Translations under genes and position numbers: made by a program
Source: Halarcobacter bivalviorum
Lineage (GTDB): Bacteria; Campylobacterota; Campylobacteria; Campylobacterales; Arcobacteraceae
Assembly: GCF_003346815.1 (NCBI RefSeq)
Contig: NZ_CP031217.1
Location: 434,001-498,000, forward strand
DNA length: 64,000 nucleotides
Reading direction: 5' to 3'
Shown: positions 6,634-37,457 of the stretch, in pieces
Layout: the number at the start of each line of letters is the position of its first letter
Numbering within the stretch: the first letter of the stretch is position 1
Notes under the pieces: generated by a model
Database searches by the model: none
What the model saw: the letters and a program-made list of their open reading frames with translations, nothing else
What the model was told of the DNA's origin: nothing

Positions 6634-6643
6634 AAGTTTTCTA
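6620..6643. terminator. bidirectional hairpin between rimM and the convergent SPOR-like gene
   Basis: A perfect 9-bp stem (6620-6628 with 6635-6643) with a 6-nt loop overlaps the stop codons of both convergent genes. Flanking A/T runs fit termination in either direction, but the T-tracts are short. Confidence 0.45.
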
Positions 6644-7813
6644 ATATTTACATCTCTTTTCATACTCTTCTTTAGTAAAGTCTACTAAATAAGCCTCTTT
6701 ATATCCACTTTCCATTAATGTATTAAATACTTTAGTTCTTTCTTTCATAGAGTCATATGGACCAAAGTAAATCTCTATTCTATTTTTTGTATCTCTACAT
6801 AAAGATATCTTCTTATCAATGTTTTCTATTTTTTCTAAATACTCTTTATGTAAATCACCTTTTATTACAGCAACATTAATAAATGGTAAGAATAGATTTG
6901 CATTCATTATTTCATCTTCTTTTGTAGGGATAGGTGTTTCTTCTATAGGAAGGTTTACATCTGTAGGAACTTGAGTCTCTTCATTATTTGATGTAGTTGA
7001 AGTTTCCTCTTTCATCTCATCAGTATTAGTAGTAGAGTTTTCTTTATTATCATTAACAATTTCTGTCATAGTAGAAGTAGTTTTTTTATTCTCTAACTCT
7101 TTTAATAATTGATTTTTTTGATCTTCAAACTCTTGTTTTATTTGAGCTTGAAATTTTAAAAACTCTTCTTGTTCTTTTTGAATAGCAACCTGTCTCTCTT
7201 CTAATAATTGTTTCTCTTTTTCTAAAGCTTCTTTCTCTTTTGCAAGTTTTTCTTCTTCTTTTTTCTTTTCATCTTCTAAAGCTTTTTGTTCAGCTTCTTT
7301 TCTTTTTTGTTCTTCTTCTTGAATTCTTTTTTCTTCAGCTTCAAGCTCTTCTTTATCAAGAATTTCTGTTTTAGTTAACATTTTAAGTTTTTGATTTAAT
7401 TTATTTTTATCAATATCATTAATATCTACTTCAGGTTTTTTTTCTACTTTAATAGCTTGTGCTTTAGGCATCTCTTCTTTCACTTCTTCATCATCATAAA
7501 AACCTGTTAAGTAAAGAATAGTACCAATTGTAAGTATAATTGAAAGACCAGCAATAACTGCAATTAATAGTTTAAGAATTTTTGGCTTTTTCTTTTGTAC
7601 CGGAGCTTCATCATTATCTTCATTTTCAATAGTATTATTATCATAATCACTATTTTGTGAAACATCATCTATTCCCTCTGTATTTGTAAGCTCATTTTGT
7701 TCTTCATTATTTGGAACGGGTTCAAGTGAATCTTCATTTGAATCAAAGTTTTGATCTTTATCTTGTTCTAAACCTAACTCTTCAATTATTTCTTGATCTG
7801 TTTTTTCTGCCAT
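6641..7813 (-). CDS. membrane-anchored coiled-coil protein with SPOR-like C-terminus
   Basis: The 390-residue protein has an acidic, Asn/Glu-rich cytoplasmic N-terminus (1-72), one membrane segment (about 79-103), a long Lys/Glu/Gln coiled coil (about 125-255), a low-complexity Thr/Glu linker, and a folded C-terminal 85 residues containing IYFGPYDSMKERTKVFNTL and GYKEAYLVDF. That last pattern resembles the SPOR peptidoglycan-binding fold, but I cannot confirm it. A bitopic protein with a periplasmic coiled coil ending in a wall-binding module would fit. It is the last gene of the flgG group (4 bp after the preceding gene), hinting at a role tied to the flagellum or to the wall near it. Function unknown. 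Confidence 0.7.
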   Translation of the reverse strand: MAEKTDQEIIEELGLEQDKDQNFDSNEDSLEPVPNNEEQNELTNTEGIDDVSQNSDYDNNTIENEDNDEAPVQKKKPKILKLLIAVIAGLSIILTIGTILYLTGFYDDEEVKEEMPKAQAIKVEKKPEVDINDIDKNKLNQKLKMLTKTEILDKEELEAEEKRIQEEEQKRKEAEQKALEDEKKKEEEKLAKEKEALEKEKQLLEERQVAIQKEQEEFLKFQAQIKQEFEDQKNQLLKELENKKTTSTMTEIVNDNKENSTTNTDEMKEETSTTSNNEETQVPTDVNLPIEETPIPTKEDEIMNANLFLPFINVAVIKGDLHKEYLEKIENIDKKISLCRDTKNRIEIYFGPYDSMKERTKVFNTLMESGYKEAYLVDFTKEEYEKRCKY

Positions 7814-7816
7814 TTG

Positions 7817-8242
7817 TTACTCTTTATTTTGTTTTCTTTTTTCTCTTTGCTTTGCTAAGATTTTTTCTTTGTTTTTTTTATAATACTCTTTTCTATACTC
7901 TTTTAACTCTTCTTTCTTTCTCTCTCTATAAGCTTTATCATAATTAAGTCTCTCTTTTTTATTCTCTTTATAATAATCTTTTTTTTGTTTTTTATAATCT
8001 TCAATTTTTTTTATAATTTGATCTTTTCGATCATCAATATGCGTTTTTTGCTTTTTTGCAATTAACTTCATATTTTTTAGAAAGTTCTCTTCATTTAACT
8101 CTTCAGAATAATCTATTTCTTTAAAGTCTTTATACTTAGCAGGAGAATCTTTAGTTTTACTTTTTAAATAATATTCTCTTTTTTTCTTTTTATGTTTTAA
8201 AAAATTCTCTTCTCTAAGTTTTTTTAGTTTTTCTAAATCCAT
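7817..8242 (-). CDS. Lys/Glu/Tyr-rich helical protein of unknown function
   Basis: A 141-residue protein made almost entirely of charged helix: runs such as LKHKKKKREYYLK, KKDYYKENKKERL and EYRKEYYKKNKEK. It has no signal peptide, no membrane segment and no recognisable domain, and is strongly basic in the second half. It lies between flgG and the SPOR-like gene, 19 bp after flgG on the same strand and 3 bp before the next, so it is probably translated from the flgG transcript. The composition is extreme but the frame is clean and spaced like a true operon member. I do not recognise it. Confidence 0.65.
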   Translation of the reverse strand: MDLEKLKKLREENFLKHKKKKREYYLKSKTKDSPAKYKDFKEIDYSEELNEENFLKNMKLIAKKQKTHIDDRKDQIIKKIEDYKKQKKDYYKENKKERLNYDKAYRERKKEELKEYRKEYYKKNKEKILAKQREKRKQNKE

Positions 8243-9212: not shown

Positions 9213-9581
9213 ATGAAAATTTTGATAGTAGATGATAGTTCTACAATGAGAAGAATCATTGGGAATGTTGTTATGCAGTTAGGTTTTGCAAAAGATGATT
9301 TTGATGAGGCTGAAGACGGGGTTAAAGCATGGAAATTATTAAGTGAAAGTCAATATGATATTATTTTAACTGACTGGAATATGCCTAATATGAATGGTCT
9401 AGACTTAGTTAAAAAAGTTAGATCAGAAGGTAACCATCAAAAAGTTCCAATTATTATGATTACTACAGAAGGTGGTAAAAGTGAAGTTATTACAGCATTA
9501 AAAGCTGGTGTAAATAACTATATTGTTAAGCCATTCAACGCACAAGTTTTAAAAGAGAAACTTGATGGAGTTTTAAAATAA
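9213..9581 (+). CDS. cheY: chemotaxis response regulator CheY
   Basis: A 122-residue single receiver domain. The acidic pocket is Asp7/Asp8 (LIVDDSS), the phosphorylated Asp54 lies in TDWNMP, the Thr84/Thr85 switch is in MITTEGG and the conserved lysine is Lys106 in VKPF. Phosphorylated CheY binds the flagellar switch to change rotation. It sits 36 bp upstream of a CheZ-like gene, a natural partner that removes the phosphate, and opens the plus-strand flagellar cluster. Confidence 0.96.
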   Translation: MKILIVDDSSTMRRIIGNVVMQLGFAKDDFDEAEDGVKAWKLLSESQYDIILTDWNMPNMNGLDLVKKVRSEGNHQKVPIIMITTEGGKSEVITALKAGVNNYIVKPFNAQVLKEKLDGVLK

Positions 9582-9617: not shown

Positions 9618-10697
9618 ATGAGTATGAGTCAAGAAGAAATTGAAGCTTTAATGAATGGTTTAGACTTTGAGGATGATAGTCCAAAACAAGAGACTAAATC
9701 TGCAGAGGAAACTATTCAAGGGACACAAGAAGAGCCTCAAGAAGCGACTACAGAAAGTTCAACAATGTCTGAAGATGATATTAACGAGCTTATTGCCCAG
9801 ACAGAAGAAATAGTAAATAATAAAGAAGAAAATATTGAAGAAGAGTCTGTTGATGATATTTTAAATAATATTGAAGAAACAGTACCTTCTATTGAAACTT
9901 CAGATAATATTGATGATATTTTAAATGAAGTTGAAAATATTGAAGAAATAAAAGAAGAGATATCTGAAGATATTATTCCTCCTTCTGAAGAAGTTTCAGA
10001 AGCTATAGCAGAAGAAGAGAACAGTGAAGAAAACTTTGATGATATTTTAGCTTCAATAGATGGAATTCAAGATGCTGGTAGTTCAGTTGAAGAGCCTAAA
10101 ATTGAAGAAGAAAAGAAACCTGATGTAGATGAAGAAGATATTGATTTTAAAATCAATAGTGGAGTATTTCCTTTGCCAGTAGAACAAGACACTAAAGTAG
10201 TAAATCAATTAAGTCAAGTTGCAAATGACTCTGAAGAAAAAGCAACAAAAATCTTTGATGTATTAAGTAATATTCTTGATTATAATAATGAAATACAAAA
10301 TGATGTTCAAGAATTAGCTTCATTTAACGAAAAACAAACAGCAATGTTATCTTCTTTAAATCAAAAATTTCCTAAAATAGGAGCATTTAAAGAGAATTTA
10401 GAACAAGCTGAAAAAATGGGAGATTTTATTTCTGATATTAATGAAAAGTTAAATAATGGAAATATGGAAATCTTTCAAGCAATGGAATTAATGCAGTACC
10501 ATGATATTAATAGGCAAAAAATTGAAAGAGTAATGTCTGTAATTAGAAAACTTACTGTATATCTTAATAACCTTTTTGAAGATGAAAATGGATATCAAGA
10601 AATTGCAGTTGCAAAACATATCCATGGAGATTCATCAACTGGTGATTTAATGGCAGAAGACGATTTAGATGCATTAATTGCAGAATTTAATAATTAG
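9618..10697 (+). CDS. cheZ: CheZ-like CheY-P phosphatase with repeated acidic motifs
   Basis: The 359-residue protein has a folded helical C-terminal part (about 195-330) with the CheZ active-site pattern MQYHDINRQKIERV: Asp296 and Gln300 match the catalytic Asp/Gln pair of CheZ. The first 180 residues are acidic and probably disordered, and carry repeated short amphipathic segments: SQEEIEALMN (4-13), SEDDINELIA (51-60), SVDDILNNIE (77-86), NIDDILNEVE (97-106) and NFDDILASID (139-148). The extreme C-terminus, AEDDLDALIAEF (346-357), has the same shape. E. coli CheZ has one such CheY-binding helix at its C-terminus, and FliM has a related one at its N-terminus. It directly follows cheY. The phosphatase call is good; the function of the repeats is inference. 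Confidence 0.85.
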   Translation: MSMSQEEIEALMNGLDFEDDSPKQETKSAEETIQGTQEEPQEATTESSTMSEDDINELIAQTEEIVNNKEENIEEESVDDILNNIEETVPSIETSDNIDDILNEVENIEEIKEEISEDIIPPSEEVSEAIAEEENSEENFDDILASIDGIQDAGSSVEEPKIEEEKKPDVDEEDIDFKINSGVFPLPVEQDTKVVNQLSQVANDSEEKATKIFDVLSNILDYNNEIQNDVQELASFNEKQTAMLSSLNQKFPKIGAFKENLEQAEKMGDFISDINEKLNNGNMEIFQAMELMQYHDINRQKIERVMSVIRKLTVYLNNLFEDENGYQEIAVAKHIHGDSSTGDLMAEDDLDALIAEFNN

Positions 10698-23318: not shown

Positions 23319-24236
23319 TTGGCATCTGATTTATCAAGTTTTTTAAAAGATGAATTAGCTAATACTTTAGAACAACTACTTTCAAAAAGCACTACAGTTG
23401 ACTCTGTATCAGCATTAGATGTAAGTAGTTTAGATGATTCTCAATGTATTGAAGTATCAGTTAAGTTTGAATTTTCAACTATTAGCTCTATTTGGAAATT
23501 TTATATTCCTTCTATTACTGCAACGAAATTTGAATATTTCATGCTTGGAGGAATGGGAGATTTAAAAGAGCATATTGATGATGAAATTGCCGATGCAGTA
23601 AATGAGATTATCTCTAATGTATGTGGTAGTTTATGTACATCAATTAATGCACAAGGTTTTCCTGATGTAAGCTCTATAAAATCAGAAGTTGCAGAGTTTT
23701 CTATAAAAGTATGTAGTGATATTGAAGATAGTGATAATATATATACTCTTGATTTATCATTAGATGGAGAGAAACTACCAATTTATCTATTATTAGATGA
23801 AATAATATTACCTTATTTATCATCTATTACTGGATATGATGACTCAGCAGATGTAAATAATAGTGTCTCTACACCAGCAGCAGTAAGTGCTCCAAATAAT
23901 CAAGCACCAAATTCTATTGCAACTATGGGACCTAATGTAAGTACTATTAGTTCTTTATTATCTGAAGAATCAGCAGAAAACTTACAACTATTATTTAATA
24001 TAAAGCTAAAACTAAGTGTTAGATTAGGAACTAAAAACTTTTTATTAAAAGATATTTTAAGATGGGATATTGGAGAAATAATTGAACTAGAACAAATGGT
24101 TAATGAACCTTTAGACATTTTAGTAAATGGTGTTAAAATAGGTGAAGGTGAAGCTGTAATCGTTGAAGGTAAATTTGGTTTAAAAATCAAAAATATTGGT
24201 GATAGTTCAATGAAACTTAGTCAAATAGGAATGTAA
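23319..24236 (+). CDS. fliY: flagellar switch protein FliY (CheC-like plus FliN-type domain)
   Basis: A 305-residue protein with an N-terminal CheC/FliM-middle-like domain (about 1-170) and a C-terminal SpoA/FliN domain (about 225-303: FNIKLKLSVRLGTKNFLLKD; EPLDILVNGVKIGEGEAVIV). FliY stands with FliN and FliM in the C ring of Campylobacterota. The possible CheC phosphatase motif reads DAVNEIISNVCG, with one extra residue between Glu and Asn relative to the usual E-x2-N, so activity is doubtful. The N-terminus lacks the acidic CheY-binding helix seen in FliM and in some FliY. The start is TTG. It is followed 3 bp later by motA. Confidence 0.85.
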   Translation: MASDLSSFLKDELANTLEQLLSKSTTVDSVSALDVSSLDDSQCIEVSVKFEFSTISSIWKFYIPSITATKFEYFMLGGMGDLKEHIDDEIADAVNEIISNVCGSLCTSINAQGFPDVSSIKSEVAEFSIKVCSDIEDSDNIYTLDLSLDGEKLPIYLLLDEIILPYLSSITGYDDSADVNNSVSTPAAVSAPNNQAPNSIATMGPNVSTISSLLSEESAENLQLLFNIKLKLSVRLGTKNFLLKDILRWDIGEIIELEQMVNEPLDILVNGVKIGEGEAVIVEGKFGLKIKNIGDSSMKLSQIGM

Positions 24237-36152: not shown

Positions 36153-37457
36153 ATGGATATTGATTCATTATTAAATAGCATTGATTCTTCATCACTATCA
36201 ATTCCCTTTGGAAGAATTAAACATATCTCTTCTACTACAATAAAAGCTTCAGGTATAGAAGTAGCAGTTGGCGATATTGTACGAATTGAGTCTCAACAAC
36301 ATATTTATTCTGTTCTTGGAATGGTTGCTTCAATTGAATCAAATGATTTTACAATTGTTCCTTTCTCTTTTATTGATGGATTTAGAATCCATGATAAAGT
36401 TTTTTTACAAAAAGATGGATTATCTGTTGCCACTGGATATGGTCTTTTAGGTAGAGTTGTAAATGCTTTAGGAGAACCAATTGATGATAAAGGGAAAATT
36501 AAAGATTTAACAGAAAATTCTGCTATTAATAAAGTTTCTATGTCTCCTTTAGAAAGAGGAGTTATAGATGAAAGATTTTCAACTGGTGTAAAAGCTATTG
36601 ATTCTATGTTGACAGCAGGAAAAGGACAAAAAGTAGGTATTTTTGCAGGTTCAGGGGTTGGAAAATCAACTCTAATGGGAATGATTGTAAAAGGATGTGA
36701 AGCTCAAATTAAAGTAGTTGCTTTAATTGGGGAAAGAGGGCGTGAGATTCCTGAATTTATTCATTATAATTTGAATAATAATTTAGAAAATACAATTATA
36801 GTTGCAGCAACTTCAGATGAATCAGCTTTAATGAGAAAATATGGAGCATTTACAGCAATGGCAATTGCGGAATTTTTTAGAGATAAAGGGCATGATGTTT
36901 TATTGATGATGGATTCTGTTACAAGATTTGCAATGGCTCAAAGAGAGATAGGATTAAGTACAGGAGAACCTCCTGTAAGTCGTGGTTATCCACCTTCAGT
37001 TTTTGCTTTATTACCTCAATTGATGGAGCGTGCTGGAAATAATGCAAAGGGTTCTATTACAGCATTTTTTACAGTTTTAGTTGATGGGGATGATATGAAT
37101 GATCCTATTGCTGACCAAAGTAGATCAATTCTAGATGGACATATTGTTTTAACAAGAGATTTAACAGAACAAGGTTTTTATCCTCCTATAAATTTATTAA
37201 AATCTGCTTCAAGGGTTATGGATAAAGTTGTGAATGATGAACACTATAATTATTTTTTAAAGCTAAAAAGGGTATTATCACTAATAAAAGAGAATGAAGT
37301 TTTAGTTCGTGTAGGGGCATATAAGCCTGGAATGGATAAAGAACTAGACGATGCTCTTGCAAGAAAAGATAAAATTAGAACTTTCTTGACACAAGGTATG
37401 AAAGAACAGTATAATTTTAATGAAATAGTAGCGAAGTTTAAGGAGGTATTCCAATGA
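36153..37457 (+). CDS. fliI: flagellar export ATPase FliI
   Basis: FliI is the F1-beta-like ATPase of the flagellar export apparatus. The 434-residue protein has the P-loop GSGVGKSTLMG, the catalytic-Glu region GERGREIPEF, Walker B MMDSVTRFAMAQREIG, and STGEPPVSRGYPPSVFALLP. It overlaps flgL by 4 bp (ATGA). FliH, its holder, is encoded 21 kb upstream. Confidence 0.96.
   Translation: MDIDSLLNSIDSSSLSIPFGRIKHISSTTIKASGIEVAVGDIVRIESQQHIYSVLGMVASIESNDFTIVPFSFIDGFRIHDKVFLQKDGLSVATGYGLLGRVVNALGEPIDDKGKIKDLTENSAINKVSMSPLERGVIDERFSTGVKAIDSMLTAGKGQKVGIFAGSGVGKSTLMGMIVKGCEAQIKVVALIGERGREIPEFIHYNLNNNLENTIIVAATSDESALMRKYGAFTAMAIAEFFRDKGHDVLLMMDSVTRFAMAQREIGLSTGEPPVSRGYPPSVFALLPQLMERAGNNAKGSITAFFTVLVDGDDMNDPIADQSRSILDGHIVLTRDLTEQGFYPPINLLKSASRVMDKVVNDEHYNYFLKLKRVLSLIKENEVLVRVGAYKPGMDKELDDALARKDKIRTFLTQGMKEQYNFNEIVAKFKEVFQ

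Follow-up and report, generated by a model that had tools for sequence, protein, structure and literature searches.

The gene at 9618–10697 on the forward strand of the analysed window (64,000 nucleotides, G000:C1:434001-498000 in a genome of 2.68 Mb) encodes a protein which, judging by its sequence, is a CheZ and which carries, besides the catalytic core, six short segments resembling known CheY-binding peptides: one at each end and four in a long arm preceding the core. The reading favoured here, with a probability of about 0.55, is that this phosphatase offers more than one tethered site for docking CheYz, the single-domain CheY encoded next to it. The six segments are real, though the motif by which the initial annotation had described them needs correcting.

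The open reading frame and the coordinates proposed earlier for a CheZ-like protein were borne out by the ORF listing and the translation (359 aa, ATG start, stop codon inside the coordinates). The gene starts 36 bases 3′ of the gene of the presumed substrate CheYz (9213–9581, forward strand), recognised from domain matches, alignment, and the relevant passages of PMC9321776; a rod gene of the FlgF/FlgG type (10707) lies directly 3′, and the surroundings consist of flagellar genes. On the opposite strand, two adjacent ORFs (6641–8242) matched no Pfam family at E 0.01; one of them is acidic and contains a hydrophobic stretch, the other is Lys/Glu-rich. The cheYz–cheZ pair of Arcobacter, identical to the one studied here, has already been described: according to the passages of PMC9321776 dealing with it, the pair sits in the largest flagellar locus and descends from the F3 class. 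In contrast to the present account, those passages mention neither an arm nor repeats, and the term “N-terminal” is absent from the paper.

The protein matched NF041271 over residues 164–358 (E 8.5e-33, 113.8 bits, below the equivalog cut-off of 350) and, weakly, PF04344 over residues 196–330 (E 8.9e-4, 19.6 bits, below the cut-off of 30.7); the latter family was matched by 18 of the 51 rows of the CheZ alignment A2 at E 0.01. Since both curated cut-offs are missed, it is the active site and the alignment, along with the neighbouring gene and the conservation of both ends, that carry the assignment as CheZ; the identity proposed initially is supported. The hhalign comparison with E. coli CheZ was faint (probability 11%, E 0.0027, 53 columns). 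The DxxxQ signature of the CheZ class is present as Asp296 to Gln300 (10503–10517, forward strand), and the claim that this predicted catalytic pair is intact stands: both residues are invariant in two alignments, of 45 and of 51 rows, and lie opposite Asp143 and Gln147 of the E. coli enzyme. They belong to a phosphatase core predicted by AlphaFold as a helical hairpin of residues 190–250 and 255–321 (10185–10580, forward strand), overlapping the PF04344 match.

The six segments, all on the forward strand, begin with the FliM-like N-terminal peptide MSMSQEEIEALMNGLD (9618–9665, residues 1–16, predicted helix 5–12). The arm follows with the internal copies A2, SEDDINELIAQ (9768–9821, residues 51–68, predicted helix 52–68), B1, ESVDDILNNI (9843–9878, residues 76–87, predicted helix 78–87), B2, DNIDDILNEV (9903–9947, residues 96–110, predicted helix 98–110), and B3, ENFDDILASIDG (10029–10064, residues 138–149, predicted helix 140–147 of low confidence), B1 and B2 being of the E. 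coli CheZ C-terminus type. The C-terminal peptide AEDDLDALIAEF (10653–10688, residues 346–357, predicted helix 347–358) closes the chain. Both comparisons drawn in the initial annotation were confirmed: E. coli FliM starts with SQAEIDALL, which the first peptide resembles, and E. coli CheZ ends with VDDLLDSLGF, the last peptide being of the CheZ type. The copies fall into two classes, FliM-like (residues 6, 348, and, more loosely, 53) versus E. coli CheZ-like (76, 96, and 138). The presence of an EIDALL-type N-terminal peptide of the FliM kind is evident from the alignment and the template score described below; the genome’s own FliM reads LSQDEIDALLD there, and CheZ reads MSQEEIEALMN. The CheZ lacks a FliM domain: the FliM middle domain PF02154 was not found in it, and its sole match in the genome lies elsewhere.

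The literal motif proposed initially, [SN]-x-[DE]-[DE]-[IL]-x-x-[ILM], did not survive along with the segments. It fits residues 4 and 51 only, since SVDDILNNI (77), NIDDILNEV (97), and NFDDILASI (139) break it at the last position and the segment at residue 346 opens with Ala; having fitted two of six places, it was dropped in favour of a shifted register. Inside this one arm, it occurred once, at chance level (P = 0.084). The common register [DE]-x-Phi-[DEN]-x-[IL]-[ILM], drawn up post hoc with the sequence already known, covers six starts (6, 53, 76, 96, 138, and 348). It gave four matches in the arm versus 0.12 expected (0 of 5000 shuffles reached this count) and 117 matches in 92 Arcobacteraceae arms versus 7.7 ± 2.7 in 200 shuffles; the E. 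coli CheZ-type pattern was found in the same arms 86 times versus 0.5 expected.

A test independent of the post hoc pattern scored every ten-residue window of the protein by its likeness to three templates: the start of E. coli FliM, the end of E. coli CheZ, and the genome’s own FliM. The five top-scoring windows start at residues 96 (29), 76 (28), 6 (28), 138 (23), and 348 (19). The window at 53 (A2) scores 15, less than a core window at 269 (17) and the same as the window at 344, which overlaps the C-terminal copy. Three arm windows score at least 20, a count that none of 1000 shuffles attained. The test weakens as the threshold is lowered, shuffles reaching the observed count in 14 (threshold 18), 114 (16), and 157 (14) cases per 1000, and this fading is due to the score of only 15 at residue 53. 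In the 92 family arms, 159 windows scored at least 20 versus 36.6 in shuffles (maximum 46 in 20 shuffles).

A profile of 46 distinct terminal peptides (Campylobacterota FliM and CheZ ends plus the E. coli CheZ end) gave a different ranking, which was counted against the docking reading. The two ends scored 24.0 and 22.7, A2 8.75, and the B copies from −3.3 to −0.25 in the shared register, B3 attaining 2.8 in another one. The non-repeat window at 173 (9.0) ranks above A2. By this profile and the template scores, the internal copies are closer to the E. coli CheZ end than to the local terminal peptides. FliI (36153–37457) also starts with a sequence resembling the docking motif, MDIDSLLNSIDSS (score 7.5), which may be due to chance.

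Conservation was followed in the family Arcobacteraceae, where 96 of 104 genomes gave a CheZ match; 92 proteins were used, and four genomes (G049, G071, G076, and G097) were left out as fragments, split genes, or short matches. Alignment A1 comprised 45 of the 92 family proteins, hand-picked for spread. Alignment A2 comprised 50 of 59 loci, after removal of the fragments L136 and L157, the distant Desulfurellales L158 and L159, and the short paralogues L160–L164. A further alignment, A3, in which rows of CheYz only and of CheZ only were mixed, was misaligned and discarded. Beyond the family, 37 other Campylobacterota CheZ were sampled (17 best-match loci and 20 hand-picked) from 196 genomes with a match, i.e., 209 less 13; family f9 lies outside this sample.

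Within the genus (16 rows including the protein’s own), identity to the residues of this CheZ is 0.95 for the N-terminal peptide, 0.91 for A2, 0.77 for B1, and 0.64 for both B2 and B3, versus only 0.23–0.53 in the stretches between the internal copies; the contrast was equalled by 2 of 156 circular shifts. A2, the weakest of the copies by template score, is yet the most conserved of the internal ones. The copies are aligned in the same order across the 16 members with two exceptions recognised by eye, L011 with a degraded B2 and L012 without B3; the relaxed pattern gives two to five copies per arm. Lack of conservation between relatives, which would have refuted the initial interpretation, was thus not observed within the genus. 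Across the family, the internal copies range from 0 to 5, so that only the two end peptides are constant. By the relaxed pattern, at least one internal copy is present in 85 of the 92 arms (194 copies in total versus 18.6 ± 4.2 in 300 shuffles) and none in 7; a stricter pattern finds none in 31 of the 92. Such arms show that the internal copies are dispensable. Two other arms, L063 and L093, contain near-identical tandem copies of the unit IDDILAGIDGIVD (two plus a similar third in L063, two in L093), which suggests a recent duplication of the motif.

The ends are conserved in nearly all the proteins examined. The N-terminal peptide is present in all 92 Arcobacteraceae and all 37 other Campylobacterota proteins (129/129), and residues M1, M3, Q5, E6, I8, E9, L11, and M12 are invariant in 45 rows, separated from the core by about 150 mostly variable residues. 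The C-terminal peptide occurs in 91 of the 92 and in all 37 (128/129); its score of 19 at residue 348, the predicted helix 347–358, and its presence in 91 of 92 relatives point to a C-terminal helix of the CheY-binding type. The other Campylobacterota CheZ (NF041271 type) share the MTQEELDALM-type N-terminal peptide, the core, and the DDIEALIASL-type C-terminal peptide, but differ in their arms, with a median length of 30 residues versus 116 in Arcobacteraceae and a single internal copy among the 37 arms taken together (0.5 expected). The wider design therefore consists of two end peptides and a core, to which Arcobacteraceae add a longer arm with further copies.

The same genome codes for a second, short CheZ-like protein (L094 2632–3015, i.e., G000:C1:658631-659014; about 121–127 aa), with a DxxxQ motif, the C-terminal peptide DDELEALIKSM, and no arm (NF041271, 40.8 bits); four relatives (L096, L097, L101, and L102) also start with a MTQEELDA-type peptide. 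An Arcobacteraceae-type CheZ along with a short paralogue was also found in L140 and L161 (CAMCYD010000002.1 and CAMCYD010000040.1), whose title, Helicobacter pylori PMSS1 (MAG), looks wrong.

In E. coli, the peptides at the start of FliM and at the end of CheZ dock on a common face of CheY. CheYz keeps Trp55, Tyr103, Lys106, and Lys116, corresponding to W58, Y106, K109, and K119 of E. coli CheY, and its gene lies 3–46 bases upstream of cheZ in 49 of 50 named loci. The pertinent passages of PMC9321776 name CheYz together with the residues by which it binds FliM. The favoured mechanism would be as follows. The core hairpin, presumably dimeric as in E. coli, would set Asp296 and Gln300 at the active site of phosphorylated CheYz. 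The helix at either end and the four of the acidic, low-confidence arm would act as short linear motifs gripping the alpha4-beta5-alpha5 face of CheYz, i.e., the face used by the FliM N-terminus. Several sites per chain would supply more CheYz-P locally to the active site and may let CheZ compete with FliM. By the sequence evidence, the terminal pair quite likely binds CheY; for the internal copies, binding is on balance probable. Several copies may be occupied by CheYz together, with an effect on signalling, and the arm may serve as a sink or a source of cooperativity, as supposed initially; such multivalent holding, sink action, and cooperativity presuppose binding by the internal copies.

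Since the internal copies resemble the local terminal peptides less than the E. coli CheZ end, their partner might be a second receiver domain. In this alternative, binding of CheYz is confined to the two terminal peptides, and the internal helices are short motifs for other receivers; Arcobacteraceae have several more CheY proteins, between which classes A and B may sort. The two distinguishable classes of copies are compatible with it, as are the 43 receiver-domain matches in the genome (E 1e-8 or better), other short single-domain ones among them, and the five CheY types, including CheYz, listed for Arcobacter in the passages of PMC9321776 on this subject. Still, the CheY most similar to CheYz in this genome (37% identity; the sole other one aligned) lacks the equivalents of Trp58, Tyr106, and Lys119, and this partner assignment seems rather unlikely.

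As stated in the initial annotation, FliM is not encoded in the window: its sole match in the genome is at G000:C1:2391283, with the N-terminus MAEFLSQDEIDALLDIAD, and FliY of the window (23319–24236) starts with MASDLSSFLKDELANTLEQLL, bearing no docking-type peptide there. A search for FliM covered 61 of the 104 family genomes, with 30 N-termini examined, and found it in 54; six of the seven genomes without it also lacked a CheZ match, the seventh (G074) being 61% complete. FliM is present without a CheZ match in G053 (97% complete) and with only a short CheZ-like match in G049 and G071, which speaks against a strict link of the two; hence CheZ of this type is not needed everywhere.

Another role considered for the arm is localisation: its helices would bind a polar or array partner rather than CheY, much as H. 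pylori CheZ is recruited by ChePep. ChePep-dependent localisation of CheZ is reported for Helicobacter pylori, and in Azorhizobium the N-terminal helical region is enough for polar localisation of CheZ. This improbable account would leave unexplained why the copies are the windows of the protein that best match CheY-binding peptides.

In the AlphaFold model (51 rows), all six motifs fall on helices (5–12, 52–68, 78–87, 98–110, 140–147, and 347–358, along with 172–180 and the hairpin 190–250/255–321), mostly low-confidence coil lying between those of the arm. The mean pLDDT is 66.8, with block values of 83 at 51–60 and 40–51 over 131–150, the region of B3; the hairpin, a feature that in dimeric CheZ builds a four-helix bundle, reaches 90–97 over 211–300 and 73–88 at its ends in this single-chain model. 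With Foldseek, nothing matched at E 0.001 (1kmi_Z at rank 12, E 1.9), VIA-align found only generic long-helix matches, with 1kmi absent among the best 50, and a PDB profile search hit 1kmi at E 0.42 only. In a tethered CheYz–CheZ chain, confidence did not clearly increase at the motifs and no clear docking signal emerged, which was weighed against the docking reading; the blocks of the N-terminal peptide were at 46 and 63 versus 78 and 62 for CheZ alone, a rough comparison since block frames and alignments differ. Modelled unphosphorylated, with one chain of each and a different alignment, it neither shows nor excludes docking.

The adjacency of the acidic helices to the helical bundle, and a conserved pre-core stretch with the helix 172–180, would also suit a brake acting inside CheZ, in which the helices fold onto the core or the partner subunit until relieved by CheYz-P. 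The arm, however, is mostly of low confidence, and the model does not position it reliably relative to the core (pTM 0.37); an internal brake is very unlikely. Chance matches in an acidic, Ile-rich disordered arm, in keeping with the literal motif at P = 0.084 and the non-significant template test at thresholds 16 and 14, are largely excluded by the same-arm shuffles at threshold 20, the family totals, and the conservation in the genus.

Compared with E. coli CheZ (214 aa), the present protein has in common the DxxxQ active site, the putative C-terminal CheY-binding helix, the position beside cheY, and a predicted helical hairpin like the one described for E. coli in PMC7750401. The E. coli protein differs in that each subunit has just one docking helix, at the C-terminus, as the same paper states, and by sequence neither a FliM-like N-terminus nor a repeat arm. 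Its cooperative action on CheY-P is disputed, according to PMC2673030. In the literature covered, partly as excerpts, no report was found of an N-terminal FliM-like peptide or of repeated docking motifs in CheZ, a mention in the work on ChePep and CheZ of H. pylori being possible. The 2007 genome paper of Arcobacter butzleri (PMC2147049) names CheC as the CheZ alternative and mentions CheZ once; this family of CheZ was apparently unrecognised at that time.

Overall, the sequences argue for a real, conserved elaboration of a known phosphatase, and its interpretation as multi-site docking is plausible. A bolder version, doubtful at present, is that CheZ became in Arcobacteraceae a trap of many valences for CheY-P. 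Each chain having six sites, a dimer might carry as many as about twelve CheYz-P during their dephosphorylation, competing directly with the near-identical peptide of FliM; the number of repeats would tune the steepness and delay of motor switching, and the trap might perhaps shield the motor now that the old F3 CheY has come under an acquired F7 kinase. The family offers a natural series of CheZ proteins with two to seven docking-type motifs (0–5 internal ones plus the two ends), which would make the relation between the number of docking sites and switching directly testable. The FliM look-alike at the N-terminus, general in the Campylobacterota CheZ examined, predicts head-on competition for CheY-P between CheZ and the motor.
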